Assembly (NCBI GenBank): GCA_963965975.1
Contig: OZ014412.1
Location: 10,211,849 to 10,275,848, forward strand
From: Xestospongia bergquistia
Lineage: Eukaryota > Porifera > Demospongiae > Haplosclerida > Petrosiidae
Reading direction: 5' to 3'
DNA: 64,000 nucleotides
Shown here: piece after piece, positions 270 to 47,604 of the stretch
How positions within the stretch are numbered: position 1 is the stretch's first letter
How the letters are laid out: each line of letters begins with the position of its first letter
Position numbers and translations under genes: made by a program
The notes under the pieces: model-generated
Databases searched by the model: none
What the model saw: only the letters and a program-made list of their open reading frames with translations
What the model was told of the DNA's origin: nothing

Positions 270-3253
270 GTGAGCATATGGGCATATCAATATCACTTGC
301 AGGCAAAGGGAAGATCATTTGTAGAGATTCACACCTTGAAGAAGGCACAAGACGTTATGTTGGGTGATGGACATGCTTTAAGTGCTACTGAAGCCAGTAA
401 TGTTACTCTAGAGCTTGTATTAGGAAATGGCAAGACCAAGGTGTATCGAAGGTAAACCAAATTGGGAAAGAGAGTTGAATTCTATTCCAATGACTGTCAG
501 ATTTTGGATTAGAATGACAAAGTGGTTGCTGTTGGTATCAGGAGTGGGAACCTCTATTACCTGAGCTGTCAACAGGTGAAAGATGATCAAGTCCATGTGA
601 GTGATGCTCAATTGAATGCCGAGTCAAAGGAGTTCATATGGCATTGAAGATTTGGTCATCTGAACGAGAGGAGTCTCCACACCTTACCACGTCATAGGTT
701 AGTCTATGATTTTGACTACAACACATCCAAGCAAATGCCCTTTTGTAAGTCCTGTGTGGAGGGTGAATTACACAAAACTCCTTTTCCAAGTGGAGGTAGA
801 AAACAGGCTGAAGTACCTCTTGGTTTGGTTCATAGTGATGTGTGTGGGCCATTGGGTGCTGAATGGTTGACTAGAGTGAGATACTTTCTCACATTTGTGG
901 ATGACAAAACTCACTATACATAGGTGTATTTTCTGAAGTGCAAAAGTGAAGTTTTTAGTAAATTCCTGGAGTGGAAATCTCTTGTGGAACAAACGTCTGA
1001 CTACAAATTGAAGATTTTCCGTACAGACAACGGTGGAGAATACACATCTAGACAGTTCAGTGACTACCTAAAGGCTCAAGGGATCAGACATCAATTAATT
1101 GTTCCGAAAAATCCTGAACAGAATGGAGTGGCTGAAAGGCTTAACAGAACTCTAGTCAAAAGTGTTCGATCGATGTTAACTGATACTCAACTGCTACACA
1201 AGTTTTGGGCAGAAGCACTCTCAACTACAGTTTTTCTGAGAAATTGGAGCTCAACCTAAAATGTCCTTGGAATGACACCTTTTCAATCTTGGAGTGGACA
1301 GAAACCAAGCATGAATAATCTGAGAGTGTTTGGATGCGTGGCATATTCCCAAATCCCAAAGGATGAAAGGAAGAAATTGGACCCAAAAGCAAGAAGGTGT
1401 ATCTTCCTTGGTTATGGAGATGTCACAAAAGGATACAGGCTCTATGACACAATTAAAGCTCGTTTGATTCACAGCCGAGATGTAGTATTTGATGAAACCA
1501 GTTTAGGATTTGAGAAGGAGCAAATAAAAGATTTGGAAGGTGTTAATAAACCTGTAGTTGAAATTGATGTGAGCACTGAGGAATCTCATTCTGAAGCTGA
1601 AGAGGAACAGACTGTTAATGAGGACGAGACAAACCCAAATCAGTCTGATGAAGAATCCTCAACAGTGCTTCGTCATTCAGAATGAACTCGACAACATCCT
1701 GACTATTATGGAACATGGATCTACACAGCTAAAGAATAAGGAAAGGAACCTGTAACAGTGAAAGAAGCAATGTCCAATCCTGAAGGAGAAAAGTGGAAAG
1801 ACACAATGGAGAAGGATATAAGGTCCATTAAAGCAAATGAGGTCTGGGAGTTAGTTGAACTGCCAAAGGGTAAAAAGACCATTGGCGCAAATGGGTCTAC
1901 AAAAGGAAGGTTGATGTTGATGGGTCTGTGGAAAAGTAGAAGGCTCGTCTTGTTGCTAAAGGCTACTCTCAGCAGTACGGATTAGACTATGATGAAACTT
2001 TTAGTCCAGTAGCAAGGTTTGAATCCTTACGAACACTACTTGCACTAGCTGTACAAGATGGTCTCCATGTACACCAAATGGATGTAATGACTGTTTTTCT
2101 CAATGGAAAACTAAAGGAGGAGGTGTATATGGATCAACCTGAAGGATTTGTAATACAAGGAAAAGAAAACCTAGTGTGTAAACTCAAGCATAGTCTCTAT
2201 GGTTTAAAGCAAGGCCCAAGATGTTGGAACTTCATCCTTGACGAAAAACTGAAAGAAATGGGATTTGCTCAAGAAAACAGTGATCCCTGCATATACATTG
2301 CAAAAAGTGGAGAGCCATTCATAATTGTGATCTATGTGGATGATATCTCACTAGCCGGTAAAAGTGATAAGCGAATCAGTGAAGTCAAGTTAGCCCTGGC
2401 GGAGAGATTTGATGTGAAGGACTTAAGAGAACTCAACTACTTTGTAGGTGTCAAGATAGTACAGAATCACAGAGCTTGTACTATCTGGATTGGTCAACTG
2501 ACCTATACAGAAGGAGTCCTACAGAAGTTCAGTATGGAGAACTGTAAACCCCTGATGACCCCTGTAGAAATTGGTTCGAAGTTGACAAAAGGAACAGAAG
2601 ATAGTGAGTATGTTGACAAGACACACTATCAGTCAGCAGTTGGAAGTCTGTTGTATTTGTCGATGAGAACACGTCCCGACATTACTTTTGCAGTAAGCCT
2701 TGCTGAACGTTTTTGTTTGGAACCTACCTCTCAACATCTGACGGCAGTCAAGCGTATTTTTAGATACCTAAGAGGAACCACACACTATGGATTGCTGTTC
2801 AAGAGAAATGGATCCAAAGACATCATTGGATACTCCGATGCTGCTTAGGGTGGTGATACTATTGACTGTAAGTCTATGACTGGTTACTTGTTCCAGATTG
2901 ATGGTACAGCTATCACATGGCAGAGTAAAAAGCAATCATGTGTTGCTCTGTCCACAGCAGAAGGGGAATACGTAGCTTTATCTGGAGCTGTACTGGAAGC
3001 AGTTTGATTGAAGCAGCTTAATCAAGATCTAACTGGAATAAGTGAGCCTGTAGTAATTTATGAGGATAACCAGTCTGCTATTGCAATCAACCTCAAGTAT
3101 CACTTCATACGAGAACAGGTGAACAATAACAACATTGAACTGAAATACTGTCAAACAAGTGAAATGATCGTGGACATGTTAACAAAAGGACTCGGAAGGA
3201 TCAAGTTTGAGAAATTGAGAGCGATGACTGGGATAGTACCCTTAAAGAACTAA
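270..3253 (+). mobile_element. Decayed Ty1/copia retrotransposon pol (partial)
   Basis: Successive open segments read as copia Pol in canonical order: end of the protease region (about 270-450, with LGDGHALSA), the GAG-pre-integrase zinc region (about 640-760), the integrase core (735-1259, with the blocks FRTDNGGEY and EQNGVAERLNRTL), reverse transcriptase (about 1890-2600, with MDVMTVFLNG, SLYGLKQGPRCW and the catalytic YVDD) and RNase H (about 2820-3240, with ALSTAEGEY and YEDNQSAIAI). The integrase-before-RT order separates copia from gypsy. The element is dead: stops interrupt it near 921, 1257, 1683, 1736, 1939, 2846 and 3006, a frame change lies near 1890, and gag plus the protease catalytic start are missing. 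A purine-rich stretch at about 3264-3273 could be the polypurine tract before a 3' LTR, but no LTR pair can be defined in this window. Confidence 0.9.
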
Positions 3254-5098: not shown

Positions 5099-6022
5099 AT
5101 TGGTTATGGAACTCTTTGTTGAGATTAAAACTGTTTTAACCTTTGGGGATATGCTCTCCAGCTTATCCCACCAATAGGAGGTGTTAAAATAAATATATAT
5201 AGACTGACTAGGCATGCAGTACATTGTATCAATTTACCTTAGTTATTACCAAGACATTAGTGATGAATGTTTTGAAGTCTTTGTTTAACAACTGAGCTAA
5301 GTCTTTGAACATGCCTGGTTTTTCAAGATTTTGTAATATTTTTGACAACTCATCCTTAAAATTGCACAGTTGCCGCTGACTTCCTTCAAAGCCAGTCTGT
5401 TGGTCGCAACTCTGAAAACAAAAATCAATTAATACATGTTGTACATTGGATTAGCTATGAAATTAGAGTTTTAAGTCAAATTACTCTGCTTATATGAAAA
5501 AAGGATCATTGATTAGCAACATACATTGCTACATAATATTAGTCTTGTGCAAAAGTTTTTATATTAACTTAGGGAAACAACAATACACTAAATATATCCT
5601 ATGAACACCCTGTTAAGTCAACAAAACCACTTGAATTCTATCTCAATTTTTATACATTTGCTTTCAGTCCGCGTATTTACTTACCACACTCTGGCACATT
5701 TCTGATAGTTCAGGAATAGAACTCAGAATACCATCTACTGTTTGAATCTTGCATATAATTGTAAAGACAATAGCATGGTTATATCAAAGACTGTAATTTC
5801 AATTCACCTCGTATAACTCGTCACTGCTGAAACAGGTTTCGTTACTCTTGGTTTTCGTTTTTGAAGGTTGCATCTCCATTAATTTTTTGCCATGGCTACC
5901 ATTTTCGCTCAAAGATCGACCATGTGTTTGCCTCTGTGAATAAGATAATAATGATGACTTTGGACTTTTTGAATTACCTCTTTTAAGTTTTTGTCACGGC
6001 GACCACCACTATCACTCGACAT
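5099..6022 (-). CDS. Small multi-exon gene of unknown function, head to head with the VWA-E2 gene
   Basis: The family is not recognised. Five exons join in one frame with good GT-AG borders. Exon 1 (5978-6022) begins at ATG with MSSDSGGRRDKNLKE. Exon 2 (5808-5933) is basic and Ser/Lys-rich. Exon 3 (5685-5747) begins IQTVDGILSSIPELSEM. Exon 4 (5250-5411, or to 5238 with an alternative donor 12 bases later) is helical with heptad-like hydrophobics (FKDELSKILQNLEKPGM). Exon 5 (5099-5161) ends at a strong GTAAGT donor. Every exon has a length divisible by three, so any could be skipped without a frame break. The terminal exon and stop lie to the left, probably within 300 bp, but could not be fixed. 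No signal peptide or membrane helix is visible. The product is a short, probably soluble, partly coiled protein. It shares a 129-bp 5' region with the divergent gene on the + strand. Confidence 0.6.
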
Positions 6023-6151: not shown

Positions 6152-9100
6152 ATGGACGACCTGCTGAAATATCTCCTTCCTTCCAATGTAAACGAAAAAA
6201 CTTTAAACGATAAAATTATTCCTCATCTGTTCAACAAAGGGTTTAAGACAGTTGGTGATCTTGAAGATTTGGAGGAAGCAGATTTAGATGGTACTGATGT
6301 ATATTTAAATACGTATCTTGTTCAACACAAGTTTTTTAACATTTTAGGATTTGATGATTTAACCAAACGAAGGATATGGAGGCTAGTCCATTCTGTTAAT
6401 CGACCTTCTGCATTTTCTATTGATAGTGATCTCTGCCAAGAAGAAGAGAGTACTAATATATATCTGCGTTATGTTTTCTGTGCTAGTAACCTCTTCTCAA
6501 ATGACATCATGCAGACTGTCATGAAGGACATTGACCCGACTACGGTGACACTTTTAGATATCACCAATCGTATTTTAAAAGATGATAAAATATGTCCCGA
6601 CCACACTATTGAAATGTATTCTAGTGAAGGGTATCCTTTGCATAACAATGAAATCACAAACAAAGGTATACCAGCCTTTATTTATTTCAAGTACAACAAT
6701 GTATTATATATACAACTATCCCTGTAGCCCCATTAAAGTCTTGGGGAATATCTGATGGTAACCTATTTTATGTGATGATTCGTTCAAAAGAACAACCAGG
6801 AATGTTGGAGTTTGTAACATTACCAGAATTAGATCACGACACTGGTAACAACAGTTAACTGTATAACTAGTATGCAGAAAATAAATTAAATTCTTTACAG
6901 GTCAGGAAACATTCACAGTAGAAACTCCATTTCATGGCTGTTTTCCAATTAATGCTTACATGGATTGTGATTCTCCAGAGGATATTGCACAGAAAGTCTA
7001 TAGTATAACTGATATACCAGCTCCTTATATTACCTTGTTTGTTAGGTAAAGTCAATGATAAACATCAATTATGTTTCTTGTACATGATCTATTTAGACGA
7101 GGCTACACATATGAAAGAATGAGTGCTTTTACTGAATTGGAGGACAAAGACAACATAAGAGTTGTTTTGCGAAACCCACAAGAAGTGATTCACCCTCGTT
7201 CTCCAAACTATGGCTGCCGTAGTTTTAACCCTGTTGTAACTCAATCAGAAGTAGGTATATCGAAATTCTACTCAATTCTAAAATTTCTGGTTAGTTAAGT
7301 TATAACTCATATAACCATGCAATCAGCTTACTATGCAGTGCTCAACGCAACCGCACAACAAAACATATGATTTTGAGAAACTCCTTTCACACCTCCTGAA
7401 TTTCACCAATTTTCCACCACTAGTCCATGCTCTTAGATCTCTGAAAGATCATTCATTCCTAACATTAGCAGGATGGGTAAACAAACAAATTATGTACACC
7501 ATAATACTGTGGAAATATCTAAATTGAAGATTACTAGAACTTGTTTTGTTATGTAGACTGCTCTTGTAGAGGGAAGTTATTATCTCTTTAAAAGAATTAT
7601 TAACTACTTTGCAACTGGTAAACCTATTGGAATTTATCTTTATTCATATGTGAAATAGTTGAGGAAAATAAAATTTTTGAATACTCTGATTATGTATGGT
7701 CTATTCTTATTTATCATTCTCATGTAAGTTATTAATACCACATTGATTACATTATGCTTTAAAAAATAGAATAATGAAGATATCTCTAATATAAAATCTG
7801 AACTACATTCACTCGTATGTCCACTTTCTGGGATTAAAATGTGTAACCCTGTTCGCATCTCATCATCACAAAGTAACTTGGAACAATTCAATTTTGATAA
7901 ATGCAACATTCTGGCAAAGATTGCAGGTATAAACATTCAGATCTGGTGTAATTATTAAAGCATTACAATGATTATAGCTGGTGAAGATTTCTCTGAGTTT
8001 GGACTTAAAGACAATATAATTGAAGTGATGGAACCTGATGCACTGATAGCTCGACTTCTAATGTATTATCCTTGGGAAACTGATACAAAAGTCTCTATTT
8101 GGACTAATCCACCAGAGGAAGTTATTCCTATGTATACTTTTAGCATACAATTATTTTAGTATATGAATATATATATATTATTTAGGATCTGTAGAAAGAT
8201 TGAGGTGACCTTCTCATGGCTTGATATGATGAACTCTCTACAAGAGATTTGTATTGTTGATCCTCGTGGTTTGTATGCTGGATCTGAATGCCTTACATAT
8301 AACAGCAAAGGTAAAGTAACTTCAGCAACAGAAAATGTTAAAATTATTATTTACTGTATACTTAAGGACAACTTGTCTACTTTGTGGGTTCTGCTAAAGG
8401 TACTGATGAGCATAGACGGATTTATAATCCTCAATCTACTGAAGATGATTATTTACAATTAGTCTCAAAGGATGAGCTTTATAGAATTGGATGGTACATA
8501 TACAAGATAACTTCACATTTATCTTTGTGCATTAATAAATACAGTCAAGTTGATCAAGGAACTATTACATGTGACATTGCAAGCCATCTTAAAGATGTCA
8601 CTTCATTTGCTCAATATGTTAACAAATCACATGCTATAAGGTAAATCAATAATTCTATGTAATAATGTCTTTAACCATAACTACATCAAGGTCATCAGCA
8701 ATCATTCAACCTAAAGATAGCATAGGCTGGGAAACAGAGGAAGCCATTGTTGTAAGATGTAGTATGAACATGCAGTCATTCTATAAATAGATAGGTTTTA
8801 TTTGATCAAAGTGGTTCAATGTCTTCAACAGTCTTTCCTGAGTGAGGGTTTATAATCATATTTTTTTAAAAATTATCATCATCAACATCATAGAATGGAG
8901 AACCTAACAAGACTTGATGCAGCTAAAGAGTTGTTCAATGCATTTGCAACACGAACACAAGCTTACAAACTTCACCACTCATTAGGACTAACAATATTTG
9001 GAAGTGAAGTTACTATAAAATTTAATATTTCAAAAAACTTGGAGGAGTTTGAAGTAAGCTTACAAGACAATAAAAATGTATAACGTTGTTATATATACAG

Positions 9101-10856
9101 CATGCTTTATAAATTAAAACACAGTATATTAAAATCACGTTTGATATTAACTTAAGTGTCAAAAATCTTTAATGTGTGAATTAACTTTGCTATATTCTGA
9201 TAATAATTAATTAAACAAATTATAGACAAGTCTGAAAGATGTGGGAATACGTGGCTTAACATCTCTAACAGAGGCAGTAGTTAATGGTGTTAATCAACTA
9301 AAAAATTACCCTTGTCGAAAGTTAGTTAGTTATTATTATGATAACATATTAAACAATGGATTTTTTGTCAGACGAATACTCTGCTTAACAGATGGATATA
9401 ACAGTTCAAGTATACCATATTCTACAGCATTAGACACTGCCAGGGTAAGGTGTAGCAATACCTATGTTTATAATGAATTTGCACTGATTATTAAGCTTCT
9501 TATATTACATTAGAATAATGGAGTCATTGTAGACACAGTGCTATTGACTTGGCCAGATCATAATGCTACACAAAAAGCACTCTGTCATGCCACAGGTACA
9601 AACAAGCAATAGATATGATCCATTGCAAACAATTAATATTTTGATGAGGAAGCTTTTTAAAACATATTAACATATTTTCAAAATATTTTTGTGAGCTTAA
9701 ATTAATCCTTTCATTGGTTCATTATTCTTGTAATGTAGGTGGAGTTTGTGTTCTTCCTAGGAAAATGGAAGAAGCTTTACGTTATTTTGAAATGGATTCC
9801 ATGTTATCTACAAAAGAAAGGATCCCTTGGCAAACAAATTTAACAGTATATAATAGTACAGTTACAATAACAAATGTTTTGCTTCTTAGGCTAGTATTAA
9901 CTACTTTGAGGATATGACAATGTTTCCTTATCAAACAGAAGAAAGCTTTAAATCTAGTTATGTTCAGACATTCCAGCAAGTGAAAACATTCTCAACACAA
10001 AAGTTATTTCAATATTAACAATACTAATGTGCATATTTGTTTTCAGATATTTAGACCATCAGAAAGGGAAACCCAATGATTCATCTCAGCAGAGGCGAAT
10101 AATGAAGGAGATAATGGAGTTTATGCATAATCCTCATGATCACATTTCAGTTTTTCCTTCCCAAAACGAGTATGTTAACTATAGTACATATTAGTCATAC
10201 ATTAGCTTAAGGCATTATACATAGGTATAACAAATGGAAAGTTCTTATGCATGCACCTGAACTCTCTGAATACAAAGGAGGTATAAAGTCATTTAATTTA
10301 TTAATGTCATGCATAATTACATAGGAACATTTGTTATAAGTGTTCATTTTCTTGAAAAGTATCCTTTTTTACCTCCTGAAATTCGATTTTTGACTACAGT
10401 AAGCTGAATAACATCATAGTTACCATAATATGTAACTTAATTGTACCATTTCTGTAGATTTATCATTGTAACATCAGTAGTAGTAGTGGCCGGATATGTC
10501 ACAGCATTCTTGGTGAATCCTACACACCATCTACTAGTATGCGTGACATTCTATGTTATATTTATGGACTACTAATGTGTCCTGATATGGACAGTCCTCT
10601 GGATGGGTAATGATAATAAACTCTCATATAGTATTAATATCAACCATACAGTGCTCTTGCTGATGAGTATGGATATAAGAGCCATCGAGAAAATGATTTA
10701 AACAAGAAGTTAGATTCAGCTAAGTATTTTGGAGCAGCTAATGGGTATTTCAATAAAGCAAGATCTCATGTCCGTCTGTATGCAAGTAAACCTAGAGAAC
10801 ATTTAGAAAAGGTTGGCTTGTTTTTCAGAAAATGCATTCATTTTATATTGCAATAG
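6152..10856 (+). CDS. Multidomain VWA - ubiquitin-conjugating (E2) fusion protein
   Basis: Twenty-four exons join in one frame with no stop, giving about 1,028 residues: 6152-6665, 6728-6844, 6901-7045, 7097-7250, 7327-7476, 7557-7617, 7780-7926, 7978-8131, 8195-8310, 8367-8493, 8545-8640, 8691-8751, 8795-8841, 8894-9053, 9226-9320, 9372-9444, 9514-9595, 9739-9845, 9890-9979, 10063-10169, 10225-10280, 10325-10398, 10458-10606, 10652-10856. Domains in order: a SAM-like helical unit (residues about 1-80); two ubiquitin-like folds (about 103-193 and 211-292); a degenerate RING/U-box-like motif VCPLSGIKMCNPVR (about 392-405); a VWA domain (about 610-800) with DQSGS (618-622), Thr695 and Asp722, a complete MIDAS; and a UBC fold (about 833-1000) with HCNISSSSGRIC, the cysteine at about 925. 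The known E2 role is to carry ubiquitin or a similar modifier on that cysteine; the VWA domain presumably binds a partner through a metal ion. It is probably cytosolic, as no signal peptide or membrane helix is seen. The substrate and pathway are unknown. Confidence 0.85.
8795..9845 (+). other. VWA domain exons of the fusion gene
   Basis: Six exons encode the Rossmann-like VWA fold. Strand 1 carries VLFDQSGSM, the DxSxS metal site. The helix carries RLDAAKELFNAF, followed by LGLTIFGSEV. The second MIDAS element is the Thr in GIRGLTSLTEAV, and the third is the Asp in ILCLTDGYNSSS. All three MIDAS elements are intact, so metal-dependent ligand binding is plausible. VWA domains of cytosolic proteins often serve as assembly or chaperone-like modules (for example in Ku, Rpn10 and copines); which applies here is unknown. 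Confidence 0.88.
10063..10856 (+). other. E2 ubiquitin-conjugating (UBC) domain exons
   Basis: Helix 1 reads RRIMKEIMEFM, then the strands YNKWKVLMHAPE, YKGGTFVISVHFLEKYPF and LPPEIRFLT, then the active-site block IYHCNISSSSGRICHSIL and the closing helices with CYIYGLLMCPDMDSPLDG. These match the UBC order, including the YPF...PP element, the Asn of the HPN motif (Pro is Cys here) and the catalytic Cys after GRI. The domain therefore looks catalytically competent rather than a UEV-type pseudo-E2. A C-terminal tail of about 60 basic and aromatic residues follows, ending at the TAG at 10854-10856. Confidence 0.88.
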
Positions 10857-10992
10857 GAATTAAGTGGTTAGTAACACCATTGCCTTTAATTGAATCTTCT
10901 TATTGTGATAAACAATTAAACTTTGATGTGCACATATACTTTCTTAACTTTAATGATGATAATTATTGCAATCAATCAAACAACAACATAAT

Positions 10993-41900: not shown

Positions 41901-44900
41901 CACTGATAATCGTCCTTGAACTACTCCTTGTGAAGGTCCTTCAAGTCCTTGGTCCCCTTGTGAAACAAAATAAACTTCATCACCTTTAACTTCAGTTGCA
42001 TAAAATGACTCCTGTGTGTCAATAAATGATTTTTTACTTCAACATACTCATAATTATGTAGTTAAAACAAACCTGTCTTCTCTTAATGATAGTATTAAAA
42101 ACTTGATCTGAAAAAAGAATTTTCAAAATCAATACTCAGATTATTTATAAATTATTGTAGTACTAAGAAGATAACAAACACTTTACCTTGTAGTTCTCTA
42201 TTAGGTAAATCTGCTGTAAAACAGAGGGCACTATATAATTCAAGAACAGCTGGAGTCTATATAGTAACAATAAGGTCATTAATACTTTTCATATATAGAT
42301 GATTTACAAGTTTTCTGTCAAAATCAGGAATTTCTTTTTTAATCTTCAACACTGAATTAGCAATTTCACTAGCAAAGAGATAACAAGACAAAATGAAAAT
42401 TAAGATACAAGTATGAAGAAACAAAGTGACAATTATTACAAAAACAGTCACTTTTACAATGCTTCAAGTGTTGTAATATATAAAAGCCAAATTATTAATG
42501 GTCTTACCTGTCATGATGAATCAATGTACACAGCACGTTCTTAACATGAATATCATCACCTTTGCATAGCTATCATAAAGTACAATTGAGCATAGAATAT
42601 ACATGTACATAATATATTATATACTCTAACTTACTCTTTTAAGAAACAACTCCAAAAATCTATCTTGTGATAAGTACTTTCTTGATTTATCATTTGGTGT
42701 TCTAGCATAGTGTTCAAGAACTGTACATATCTTTTCTTGTAGCTTTAGCTCTCTGTGTACATGTACAATTACATGATATATAGATTATTGTTAAATCTAA
42801 GACTAATACATCACCTAATGCATGAACATTAAATAGTACATTGACTTTGTTAGATAGTACTGTGTTATAACACTTACAGTACTAAGGTATAGTTCACAAA
42901 TGTGTTTAATCCAAATATGTCATGTTATTCTACATTTAGATACAAACTCTATCTGAGTTATTTACATACATGTTGAATCAGAAATATATGATATGTATTA
43001 AAGCACTTATGTTAGGCAAATAATTAAATTAAATAATAATAGCAACATGTATATACTATACCATGCTATTCTATGACCTAGACTCTATCTAGATATAGTT
43101 AATTACATTATTGTTAAAAAAGATATATAAAATTGTTATGTGAGTTTTACACATGAATATGATATTCAATAGTTCTATATGTGGTGATTGTATAAAGCAC
43201 TAAATAGGTACAATATATGCACAGGTTATATTCACTGAATGAATTTTGTAAACTTACAGATTTATAATAATAAAAAATATATATGGACTTATGACATACT
43301 AACACTAGTTGTATGCAAGTAGTTACAAGAAAATACCATCAAATATATTACTTATTACAATACTTGTGAAAGCTTAAGCCATACACAAAACCAAGCTAAC
43401 CAAACTATAATGATTGCTATTAGTTGAAGTCATTAGTCTAGACATCTAATGAAGCTAATTAATTACAAGTATGAGGAAATGATAATTCTGCACATTGAAT
43501 GATTCCCATTTACCAATCCTAATCACCACATAGAAAAGGAAAACTAATGAGTAATAGGATACTTAAATAATAACTTGATGTGTTTAAATGACTCAACATT
43601 ATTAGCTGTTTATGGAACATATAATCAAACAATAGTGGTGAGAAGCTTTAGTAAGAAAATCTTGTCATTAGACTTACTGTGTATTTTCAAATATTTCAAT
43701 AAGTATATCTACAACCTAAACAAGAGACATCAATATTAATAGATAGTATAATTAACAACATCAACATTACTGAACCGTGTAACAATAACAACTTACATGA
43801 TATATTCTTAACATTTTTGAGCTAGTTGTGATGTCCTTGTCAATCCACTTTACTAATTCATCTAAGATTTTATTGAGTTCATCAGATTTGTATGATGAGT
43901 CCCTCTGTATAGACTACAGTCATCAATATGATTATTATTAAATGTTAATATAATATGTATACTCACTTTGTTATATTCTTGTAGTACATTAGATATACTA
44001 GCCACAAAGTACAGGTTATGGACATGATTTGGAGTTACCTAAAAATAGCATAAATAAATAACGTTAAACTAAAATCACATTGTAATATAGAATTGTGTGC
44101 ATAAAGGGTTAATATATAATTATATTTACTTCTTCAATTCTGAAATTGTCAGCTGTCTCTTTTTCTTTTAGAGAAAGCTACAGGAAAAGTATTATTTTTA
44201 CTTACAACAGACATAAGATAGATGTAATTGTAATCATTGCTATTTTTAATTCAAATAAGAGTTGGCCTGTTTTCCATTTGTCTGATTCCTCTACCTCTTC
44301 ATTTACACGTATTTCAAAATCCATCCACCCATCCATCAGTGCATCTCATCCATTCACCTACCCATCCATCCATGTATCTGTCCATAGCATAAAATACGTT
44401 CACAGAATACATAAACGTTTGTAATATGTACTCACATTAAATAACTTCTGACCAATTTGTCGTTTTTTGCTAACTACCTTTGGCAATATGTGATCACCTA
44501 AACCAGTATAAAATAATATTTCAATACCACTAATACTACTGTTAATATAACAAGTGATACAACTAATACTACTGTTAATATAATAAGTGATACAACTAAT
44601 ACTACTGTTAATATAATAAGTGATACAACTAATACTACTGTTAATATAATAAGTGATACAACTAATACTACTGTTAATATAACAAGTGATACAACTAATG
44701 CTACTGTTAATATAACAAGTGATACAACTAATGCTACTGTTAATATAACAAGTGATACAACTAATGCTACTGTTAATATAACAAGTGATACAACTAATAC
44801 TACTGTTAATATAACAAGTGATACAACTAATGCTACTGTTAATATAACAAGTGATACAACTAATGCTACTGTTAATATAACAAGTGATACAACTAATGCT

Positions 44901-47604
44901 ACTGTTAATATAACAAGTGATACAACTAATACTACTGTTAATATAACAAGTGATACAACTAATGCTACTGTTAATATAACAAGTGATGCAACTAATACTA
45001 CTGTTAATATAACAAGTGATACAACTAATGCTACTGTTAATATAACAAGTGATGCAACTAATACTACTGTTAATATAATAAGTGATACAACTAATGCTAC
45101 TATTAATATAATAAGTAACACATGTAATGTTACTTTGAATTGACAAGAGCACATCATGCACACTGTTATCATTGACGTAATAATCATTAGCTTAATACAT
45201 TGTACAACTTACAATACATGTGCTATATATAATTGTTTTTATGCTGCCATTCATATTTTGTATTTGCTTTGGATGTTTATATCATCAACTGCACATTTTG
45301 AAATTTAGTGTAATTGTACATCTACTTTTACCTTGAGTTGATAAGAACAAGTCAGGCTTACTGTCACCATTGCCAGAATCAATGTCATTAGTAAACCATT
45401 GCAATTTCATTAGACTCCCCCTCAAAACTTCAGAGTCATTACCCTATAATTTTAAAATAGACTTAAAACCACAATACATGTACTAATTTTAAATATACCT
45501 CATTTCTTGAAATCATGACAAACATAGAACCACAAGACTTTTCTAATATTAGCTATGTATGTTGATAATGAAGTCCATTTGTCATAATAAATTACCTTAT
45601 ATTTTCTTTCAACAGTTGATGGTTCTAGTGATATAGACTGTTCTGATATCTGCACTTTCAAGTACTTTTGTGTAGGGACATGTTTTATGTAATACTTCTC
45701 TTTAAAGTGAATTGGACCACCTACAAATTAATTAAGTATAATAATAATTAAAATAATAATTTCTAGTTAACCATCAAAATGTTCTGAATCAACGTTCTCT
45801 AGTTGCCACCAACAATCTCCAGAGACAGGTGGAAGTCTCTTCATTCCATGAAGACTCCATTTCTTTCTCACAGTAACTATTATTAAAATAAAATAACATA
45901 ATATAACAATAATGTAAAGAAATATCTTTACCAGTATCTGCTGCCTTTCCAGTTAAAAATCCATCCACTTTAATATTTCGAAAGCGAATCACACTTCCTC
46001 CCTATAAACATTTATTATTATATGTAAATACACTAGTCTTATGTGTTAAACTTACTCTAATTGCTTCACTTGATTTGAATGAACTTGTATTAGTGTGTAC
46101 TTCAATGACAAAAGACGAATTGGCAACTGCTATTTTCAAGTCATTTCTAATAAATAATAAAAAAGAGAATTTACATGTTAGGACAGATTGACAAACTGTT
46201 ATGTCTACACTGAGAAGGTTCATATTTACTGACAACAGTCTTTAAACTACAACAACTCACTTTTGAGGGTCATCACTTTTACAACTAAGAATATGATAGC
46301 CTTTCCTTGTCATCGATTCCAAAATAACTTCATCACCAGGACATACCTAATAGTCAATATATATAAATACATATTATACATTGTATAAGAAATTATTAGA
46401 GGCCTTTATAGGAACAGTGTAATAAAAATTGTCATAACATTGTTTATGAAGGTATGAACATATGTGTTTAGGTAATCATAGCAATGCCTATCTAGGAATG
46501 GAACAGCTTGTCTATAAAAATGTATTTATAGATTACAAAAAAAACATTTAATATCTCATCAGAACTTTCCATATCCATAGTCTATCTTTCTATAACAATA
46601 CTTTAACAATGACCAAGTATACTACTAAAAAGTTACTAAATAACATTATCCATCTTACAGTTACTCTGTTTTTTAGAAAATGTTTTTATTTACTTCCAGT
46701 TCAATACATTAATTTACAACTAAGCCACGCAATTACAAATGCTTAATAAGATTCAAGATAATGTTAGTGATTAGATAACCAAGACCAATTAATACACTAC
46801 TTAAGTATAGATTTGAGGCATTTGTTTAAATTTGCAAGTAATAACTACATGTAAGAACAAAACTGGCTAATCTTATAATCAATCATCACACTAAATGCCT
46901 TTTGGTTTGAATTGATTATTAAACATAGCTTTACCATAATACTGTTTGCTAAATATTTAATTTTGATGACCACTCACATGTGGTTCTATGATATATAGTA
47001 TTCATGACGATTGGCACTTTTAAAGCATCCTTTTGATAACCATCCATATAAATATATGTGTATAATTTTTCCATAAAGAATCAATCTGTTTGCAATATCG
47101 ATACAATACAATGTACATAACACATATAACAACAACTATAGCAGCTAAAAAATTTTTAGGAGTGTCTACATTCAAGGAGGCACTTGTATTAAAAATAATA
47201 TAAACAAAACATTCCATTTGGAATTATTTCATTATTCTATTTGTAAATCAACAAAATCATACTAGACGATTCAGAGGTTGGTATATACATAATTATTCAT
47301 TAACTTTAATAACTGAGAGAATTAACATTGTATTATTTGTTTATGAATCAGCCATCATGACTATCATTGTTAAGATAGTAGAATACATATTTTTAAACAA
47401 AAGGAATATTCTAAAAGGCTTACAGTGTCTCCTCTCTTCTTTAGGATAGAAATGTCTCCTTTAGCTTGTCTAGTGTGAGTCGGCAAAATTTTAAAGTCAC
47501 AGGGATCATTTATAGTTATAATGCCATTTTTAGCATCTCTTTTCCTAACATCTTTTTTCTTAACAAGAATCTATAGAGAACAAAATCAAATATTTAGTTT
47601 GTAT

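Follow-up and report, generated by a model that had tools for sequence, protein, structure and literature searches.

Does a single gene of the sponge Xestospongia bergquistia join a VWA domain to a ubiquitin-conjugating (E2, UBC) domain, and would its product work as an E2? The locus lies in a 64,000-nucleotide stretch of contig OZ014412.1 (C2:10211849-10275848), here called the window; the genome searched comprised 146.5 Mb in 21 contigs. Its short introns with GT-AG borders and the genes that it contains are in keeping with an animal. The gene, M1, occupies window positions 6152-10871 on the plus strand, which also carries all M1 features given below. It has 27 exons and encodes 1049 amino acids, in a computed model that was corrected with a paralogue, M2. 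VWA and UBC are encoded on one continuous spliced frame of this single gene, and the fusion is real. We propose, with a probability of about 55%, that M1 is a single-gene VWA-E2 protein in which the VWA domain docks a partner and the E2 is charged at Cys956, and that the fuller form of the family, represented by the homologue M3 on contig C4, carries a U-box E3 ligase domain.

The exons of M1 are 6152-6290, 6348-6665, 6728-6844, 6901-7045, 7097-7289, 7339-7476, 7557-7617, 7659-7723, 7770-7926, 7978-8131, 8186-8310, 8367-8493, 8545-8640, 8691-8751, 8795-8841, 8894-9053, 9226-9320, 9372-9444, 9514-9595, 9739-9845, 9890-10002, 10047-10169, 10225-10280, 10325-10398, 10458-10606, 10652-10811, and 10857-10871 (including the stop codon). 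All 26 introns have GT-AG borders, and there are no internal stops. M1 was modelled ab initio first, M2 was then modelled by spliced alignment to M1, and M1 was afterwards corrected from M2. The two models are partly mutual and not fully independent; each gene has GT-AG sites and an open frame in its own DNA. The ab initio models of M1 varied from 19 to 28 exons with the intron penalty. A preliminary description of the locus had placed a continuous spliced VWA-UBC frame here, and this was confirmed by the intron borders and by M2, which keeps every exon and phase. Its 24 exons became 27, as M2 indicated that an intron (6291-6347) interrupts the first long open reading frame and that the last exon is one of 15 bases (10857-10871). 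The gene accordingly ends at 10871 and not at 10856, the latter being an unspliced alternative of the penultimate exon, which splices at 10811. The end given earlier for exon 4 was also replaced after comparison with M2, exon 5 of M1 running to 7289.

M2 (C2:10126084-10132235; L009:85-6236), a gene of 27 exons that encodes 1050 residues, is located 86 kb upstream of M1 on the same strand. Its introns follow the order and phase of those of M1 in 26 of 26 cases, and all 27 phases are equal. The two proteins are identical at 760 of 1046 aligned residues (72.7%). The UBC domain is the most conserved part (116/131), and 60 of 85 residues are identical in the linker between VWA and UBC. The ratio of nonsynonymous to synonymous substitution rates (dN/dS, Nei-Gojobori) was 0.22 overall; by region, residues 1-623 gave 0.20, VWA 0.31, the linker 0.22, UBC 0.19, and the C-terminal tail 0.33. 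This pattern indicates that selection holds VWA, UBC, and the intervening stretch in one frame. The introns separating the VWA and UBC exons of M1 are 44-143 bases long. A tblastn search of 11 nearby loci (L012-L022; C2:10096001-10126000 and 10135001-10212000) detected no further M1/M2 copies at E ≤0.01.

Pfam detected only VWA and UBC in the corrected M1, both above cut-off, as the preliminary description had anticipated. The UBC domain spans residues 875-1001 (10096-10679) and matched UQ_con (PF00179) at E = 8.8e-32 and 110.1 bits (cut-off 27). It starts 108 residues after the VWA match ends (767 to 875), close to the distance of about 100 estimated earlier. In GRICHSIL, Cys956 (codon 10497-10499) aligned with the catalytic cysteine of E2s; it had been placed near residue 925, and it corresponds to Cys957 in M2 and Cys930 in M3. 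HPN is an E2 motif, and its Asn and the catalytic Cys are kept in all three members. At E ≤0.001, the matches of the UBC segment comprised 286 distinct solved sequences. Among the best 60 of these, chains of the UBC13/UBE2N, UBE2D, and UBE2E kinds led, the closest being 2r0j (E = 1.6e-22); UBE2D1 matched at E = 2.3e-20. We read M1 as an active large E2, a prediction from the kept residues, which are consistent with activity; the earlier view was of a catalytically intact domain.

The VWA domain covers residues 631-767 (8746-9543). Both VWA_2 (residues 631-741, E = 5.1e-11, 43.6 bits, cut-off 27) and VWA (residues 631-767, E = 3.4e-6, 27.8 bits, cut-off 23.8) matched. M2 gave the same UQ_con, VWA_2, and VWA matches, together with DUF1194 below threshold. 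The metal ion-dependent adhesion site (MIDAS), taken as the residues of its known motif, was complete, as described before. It consists of DxSxS, which reads DQSGS in M1 (D636-S640, 8804-8818), DHSGS in M2, and DTSGS in M3; Thr713 (9259-9261), with a Thr in M2 and M3 too; and Asp740 (9391-9393) in LTDG, a sequence that M2 and M3 share. Thus, the MIDAS residues are kept in three of three members. VWA metal sites in partner binding are discussed in the accessible part of PMC10539598.

Searches of the genome gave 45 exon matches for UBC and 11 for U-box, and at two places on C4 the two kinds lay 0.3-0.6 kb apart. One place is M3 (C4:7859103-7864460), which was modelled by spliced alignment with 28 exons and 1082 residues. 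M3 is homologous to the C2 pair over its whole length (311/992 residues identical to M1 and 320/995 to M2). Its Pfam matches were UQ_con (118 bits), VWA_2 (33.2 bits), VWA (26.6 bits), and U-box (PF04564, 39.9 bits, cut-off 21.4); zf-Nse (32.9 bits) covered the same stretch as the U-box. The order VWA-UBC-U-box puts E2 and E3 domains on one chain. Compared by eye, M3 repeats 26 of the 27 exon-start phases of M1 in order; the exception is exon 11, where the M3 model is uncertain. The Pfam U-box profile had no match in M1 or M2 at E ≤0.01. In the place of the M3 U-box exon, M1 has a terminal stub exon, ELSG-stop (10857-10871). The stubs of M1 and M2 have phase 0 and start with E-L, as the M3 U-box exon does. 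In the simplest interpretation, an early stop probably cost the C2 pair its U-box.

The second place on C4 (L058, C4:7848001-7856500) has the order VWA(part)-UBC-U-box. It matched only residues 714-1082 of M3, without 953-969. No match to M3 residues 1-713 was found in this stretch, so the copy has been truncated or has decayed. Between this copy and M3, the U-box exon is identical at 50 of 81 positions, with a dN/dS of 0.25. An open reading frame for an AIG1-family GTPase lies beside this copy, at 1597-2352 of L058. No relatives of the family were found in viral-contig and phage collections, where none were expected, and NCBIfam gave no match.

The N-terminal half of M1 gave several leads. 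Residues 1-62 (6152-6394) form a predicted helical segment that is SAM-like only through homology to M3, whose N-terminal segment scored 28.9 bits against SAM_TNK (PF22931, cut-off 25) by itself and 22.8 bits as part of the full protein. Residues 82-171 (6452-6783) are a candidate ubiquitin-like segment. With a three-sequence profile, 8 of the 14 solved chains at E ≤10 were ubiquitin or its designed variants (best E = 0.22); in hhalign against ubiquitin the probability was 3.7%, and none of 60 shuffles reached the score. A second, weaker candidate is at residues 192-266 (6901-7175). Its M3 counterpart matched UN_NPL4 at E = 0.008 and 17.1 bits, below the cut-off of 21.9; none of the five solved chains listed for it was ubiquitin, and 2 of 60 shuffles reached its hhalign score. 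The shuffle control is lenient, because all 60 shuffles also fell short of the control A9 when it was compared with ubiquitin. Ubiquitin-like folds within residues 82-266 of M1 are only suggested. Residues 401-477 (7794-8075; CPLSG..NPV...FDK.NI) resemble a degenerate U-box. The M1/M2/M3 profile of this segment aligned by hhalign with five U-box/RING sequences of the same genome at a probability of 77.7% and E = 1.9e-5, with 0 of 60 column shuffles as high. The segment stayed below Pfam cut-offs, M2 giving a weak zf-Nse match (15.1 bits, cut-off 27). We treat the SAM-like, ubiquitin-like, and U-box-like assignments as leads.

In the mechanism that we propose, E1 would charge Cys956 with ubiquitin, and the VWA domain would dock a partner, either a substrate or a scaffold, via its metal ion. 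Several copies may come together through the N-terminal part, which in M3 is SAM-like. In M3, the U-box that directly follows UBC would act on the E2~ubiquitin bond and activate it, either in the same chain or inside an oligomer. With no more than a stub in place of the U-box exon, M1 and M2 would need an outside E3 or would act directly on the docked partner, as E2/E3 hybrids do. That the VWA domain selects the substrate or the E3, as the preliminary description proposed, stays an inference. The idea of a self-contained machine, also put forward there, does not hold for M1, which is without a canonical E3 domain; it does fit M3, with its U-box after UBC.

Several points weigh against this proposal. 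The evidence is genomic DNA sequence, and the gene models are computed. Searches of solved chains with the M1 VWA segment gave no meaningful VWA match (seven chains at E ≤1, best 0.18). A SAM profile match was absent from residues 1-62 of M1 and M2, where the weak matches were RAD51C and DNA ligase. The choice between U-box loss on C2 and gain on C4 rests on three genes with no outgroup. The HPN motif reads HCN in three of three members, His and Asn being kept and Pro not, and the Cys is followed by His-Ser (M1 and M2) or His-Pro (M3) in place of Leu-Asp in UBE2D1. With this motif and these changed residues, catalysis may be altered.

Among the alternatives, the one that survives best reverses the history of the U-box: the C4 branch would have gained it, and the C2 pair would be the original form. 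Three genes without an outgroup leave room for such a gain; the terminal exon of the C2 genes, which shares its intron phase and its first two residues with the U-box exon, nevertheless looks like a truncated remnant, and we hold the gain to be rather unlikely. The UBC domain might also be an inactive pseudo-E2, a module that binds ubiquitin or partners an E2 in the manner of UEV proteins. HCN and the altered residues after Cys in all three members, and the missing U-box of M1 and M2, would suit such a module. However, Cys and Asn are kept in three of three members, UBC is the best conserved domain between M1 and M2, and exon 25 is identical at 140 of 149 bases, which makes a dead enzyme an unlikely explanation. 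Improbable, in our judgement, is an E2 that uses a different ubiquitin-like protein, or modifies hydroxyl groups, rather than placing ubiquitin on lysine: the His next to Cys, the HCN motif, and the candidate ubiquitin-like segments in the same chain point that way, but these segments are not established, and the closest solved chains, among the best 60 of 286, are ubiquitin E2s of the UBE2D, UBE2E, and UBE2N kinds. That two adjacent genes were wrongly joined in a computed model is very unlikely, given the short VWA-to-UBC introns, the linker conserved under purifying selection, the matching exons and phases of M2, and the same domain order in M3.

Beyond the VWA-E2 protein with a fuller U-box form, the family as a whole could be a one-chain ubiquitination engine. 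It would combine SAM-like assembly, a VWA metal-site substrate receptor, an adjacent E2 and U-box E3 (in M3), and perhaps built-in modules of ubiquitin-like fold together with a second U-box, now worn; the M1/M2 branch would have dropped the E3 and kept the receptor-E2 unit. We put this wider reading forward tentatively, as a possibility that we do not favour at present. An E2 normally serves many E3s in trans. If the wider reading is true, the permanent linkage of an E2 to an E3 and a receptor of its own would represent a design undescribed in the papers searchable. M1/M2 and M3 offer a natural comparison without and with E3 inside one genome. The M3 type and its E3-less sister branch would let the effect of covalent E2-E3 coupling on speed, linkage, and specificity be asked directly.

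Exon 25, which carries the E2 Cys (window 10458-10606 and L009:5821-5969), is 94% identical between M1 and M2, and its flanking introns are about 70% identical (42/59 and 28/41). The dS of UBC was 0.30, against 0.76 overall. Local gene conversion or strong constraint would account for the exon, constraint equally well. A small gene of unknown family (window 5250-6022, minus strand) stands head-to-head with M1, its start 129 bases from the M1 ATG. It has a relative at L014:7529-7690, 2.4 kb upstream of M2 (54 amino acids, 41% identity, E = 5e-9), so a segment holding an M1-type gene and its small divergent neighbour seems to have been duplicated. Copia-like retroelement pieces lie at window 924-2848, with a reverse transcriptase match (RVT_2, 150.5 bits) and an integrase core match (30.2 bits) just under the cut-off of 32.6. 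At window 44400-45187 on the minus strand, two overlapping open reading frames of a short repeated unit are probably tandem repeat DNA. Elsewhere in the genome, diverged ubiquitin-repeat arrays form long open frames of up to 1328 amino acids (C3:10268047-10280905, C4:1251723-1285624, and C9:6285374-6287924); ordinary polyubiquitin genes on C2 and C11 are separate from them.

How does the family compare with known systems? Catalytic Cys, Asn, and a basic first helix have established roles in canonical E2s. In alignments, M1 shares these features and the UBC fold with UBE2D and UBE2N. It differs from them in having about 870 residues before UBC and HCN for HPN; M1 and M2 also have one extra residue before Cys. 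UBE2O and BIRC6 are E2/E3 hybrids. To our knowledge, neither a VWA domain nor a canonical U-box is present in UBE2O, UBE2Z, or BIRC6, whereas the partner domain in M1 is VWA and M3 has a canonical U-box. These three are named as large multidomain E2s in the accessible part of PMC11354881, and like M1 they have, by that account, a UBC domain within a long protein. The preliminary description knew of no characterised protein with the VWA-UBC order. This agrees with the searchable papers, a scope outside which most subscription journals fall, where neither a VWA-UBC nor a UBC-U-box protein was found; unpublished database entries with the VWA-UBC architecture may well exist.

Clade 6A PARPs carry a UBCc domain according to the available parts of PMC2964712 and PMC4245714. 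As described there, they resemble M1 in having UBC at the C-terminal end of a larger protein, and differ in having a PARP catalytic domain and no VWA; M1 had no PARP match in Pfam. Another system to compare is Mb_UBOXa, a VWA-U-box protein found in Monosiga, Naegleria, and further protists, which the accessible text of PMC3087547 calls ancient and absent from animals. Both Mb_UBOXa and M3 have VWA and U-box on one protein. No UBC is mentioned for Mb_UBOXa in that text, whereas M1 and M3 have one, M1 without a canonical U-box. M3 bears on the loss of VWA-U-box ligases in early animals, as far as that loss is reported in the same text (PMC3087547).

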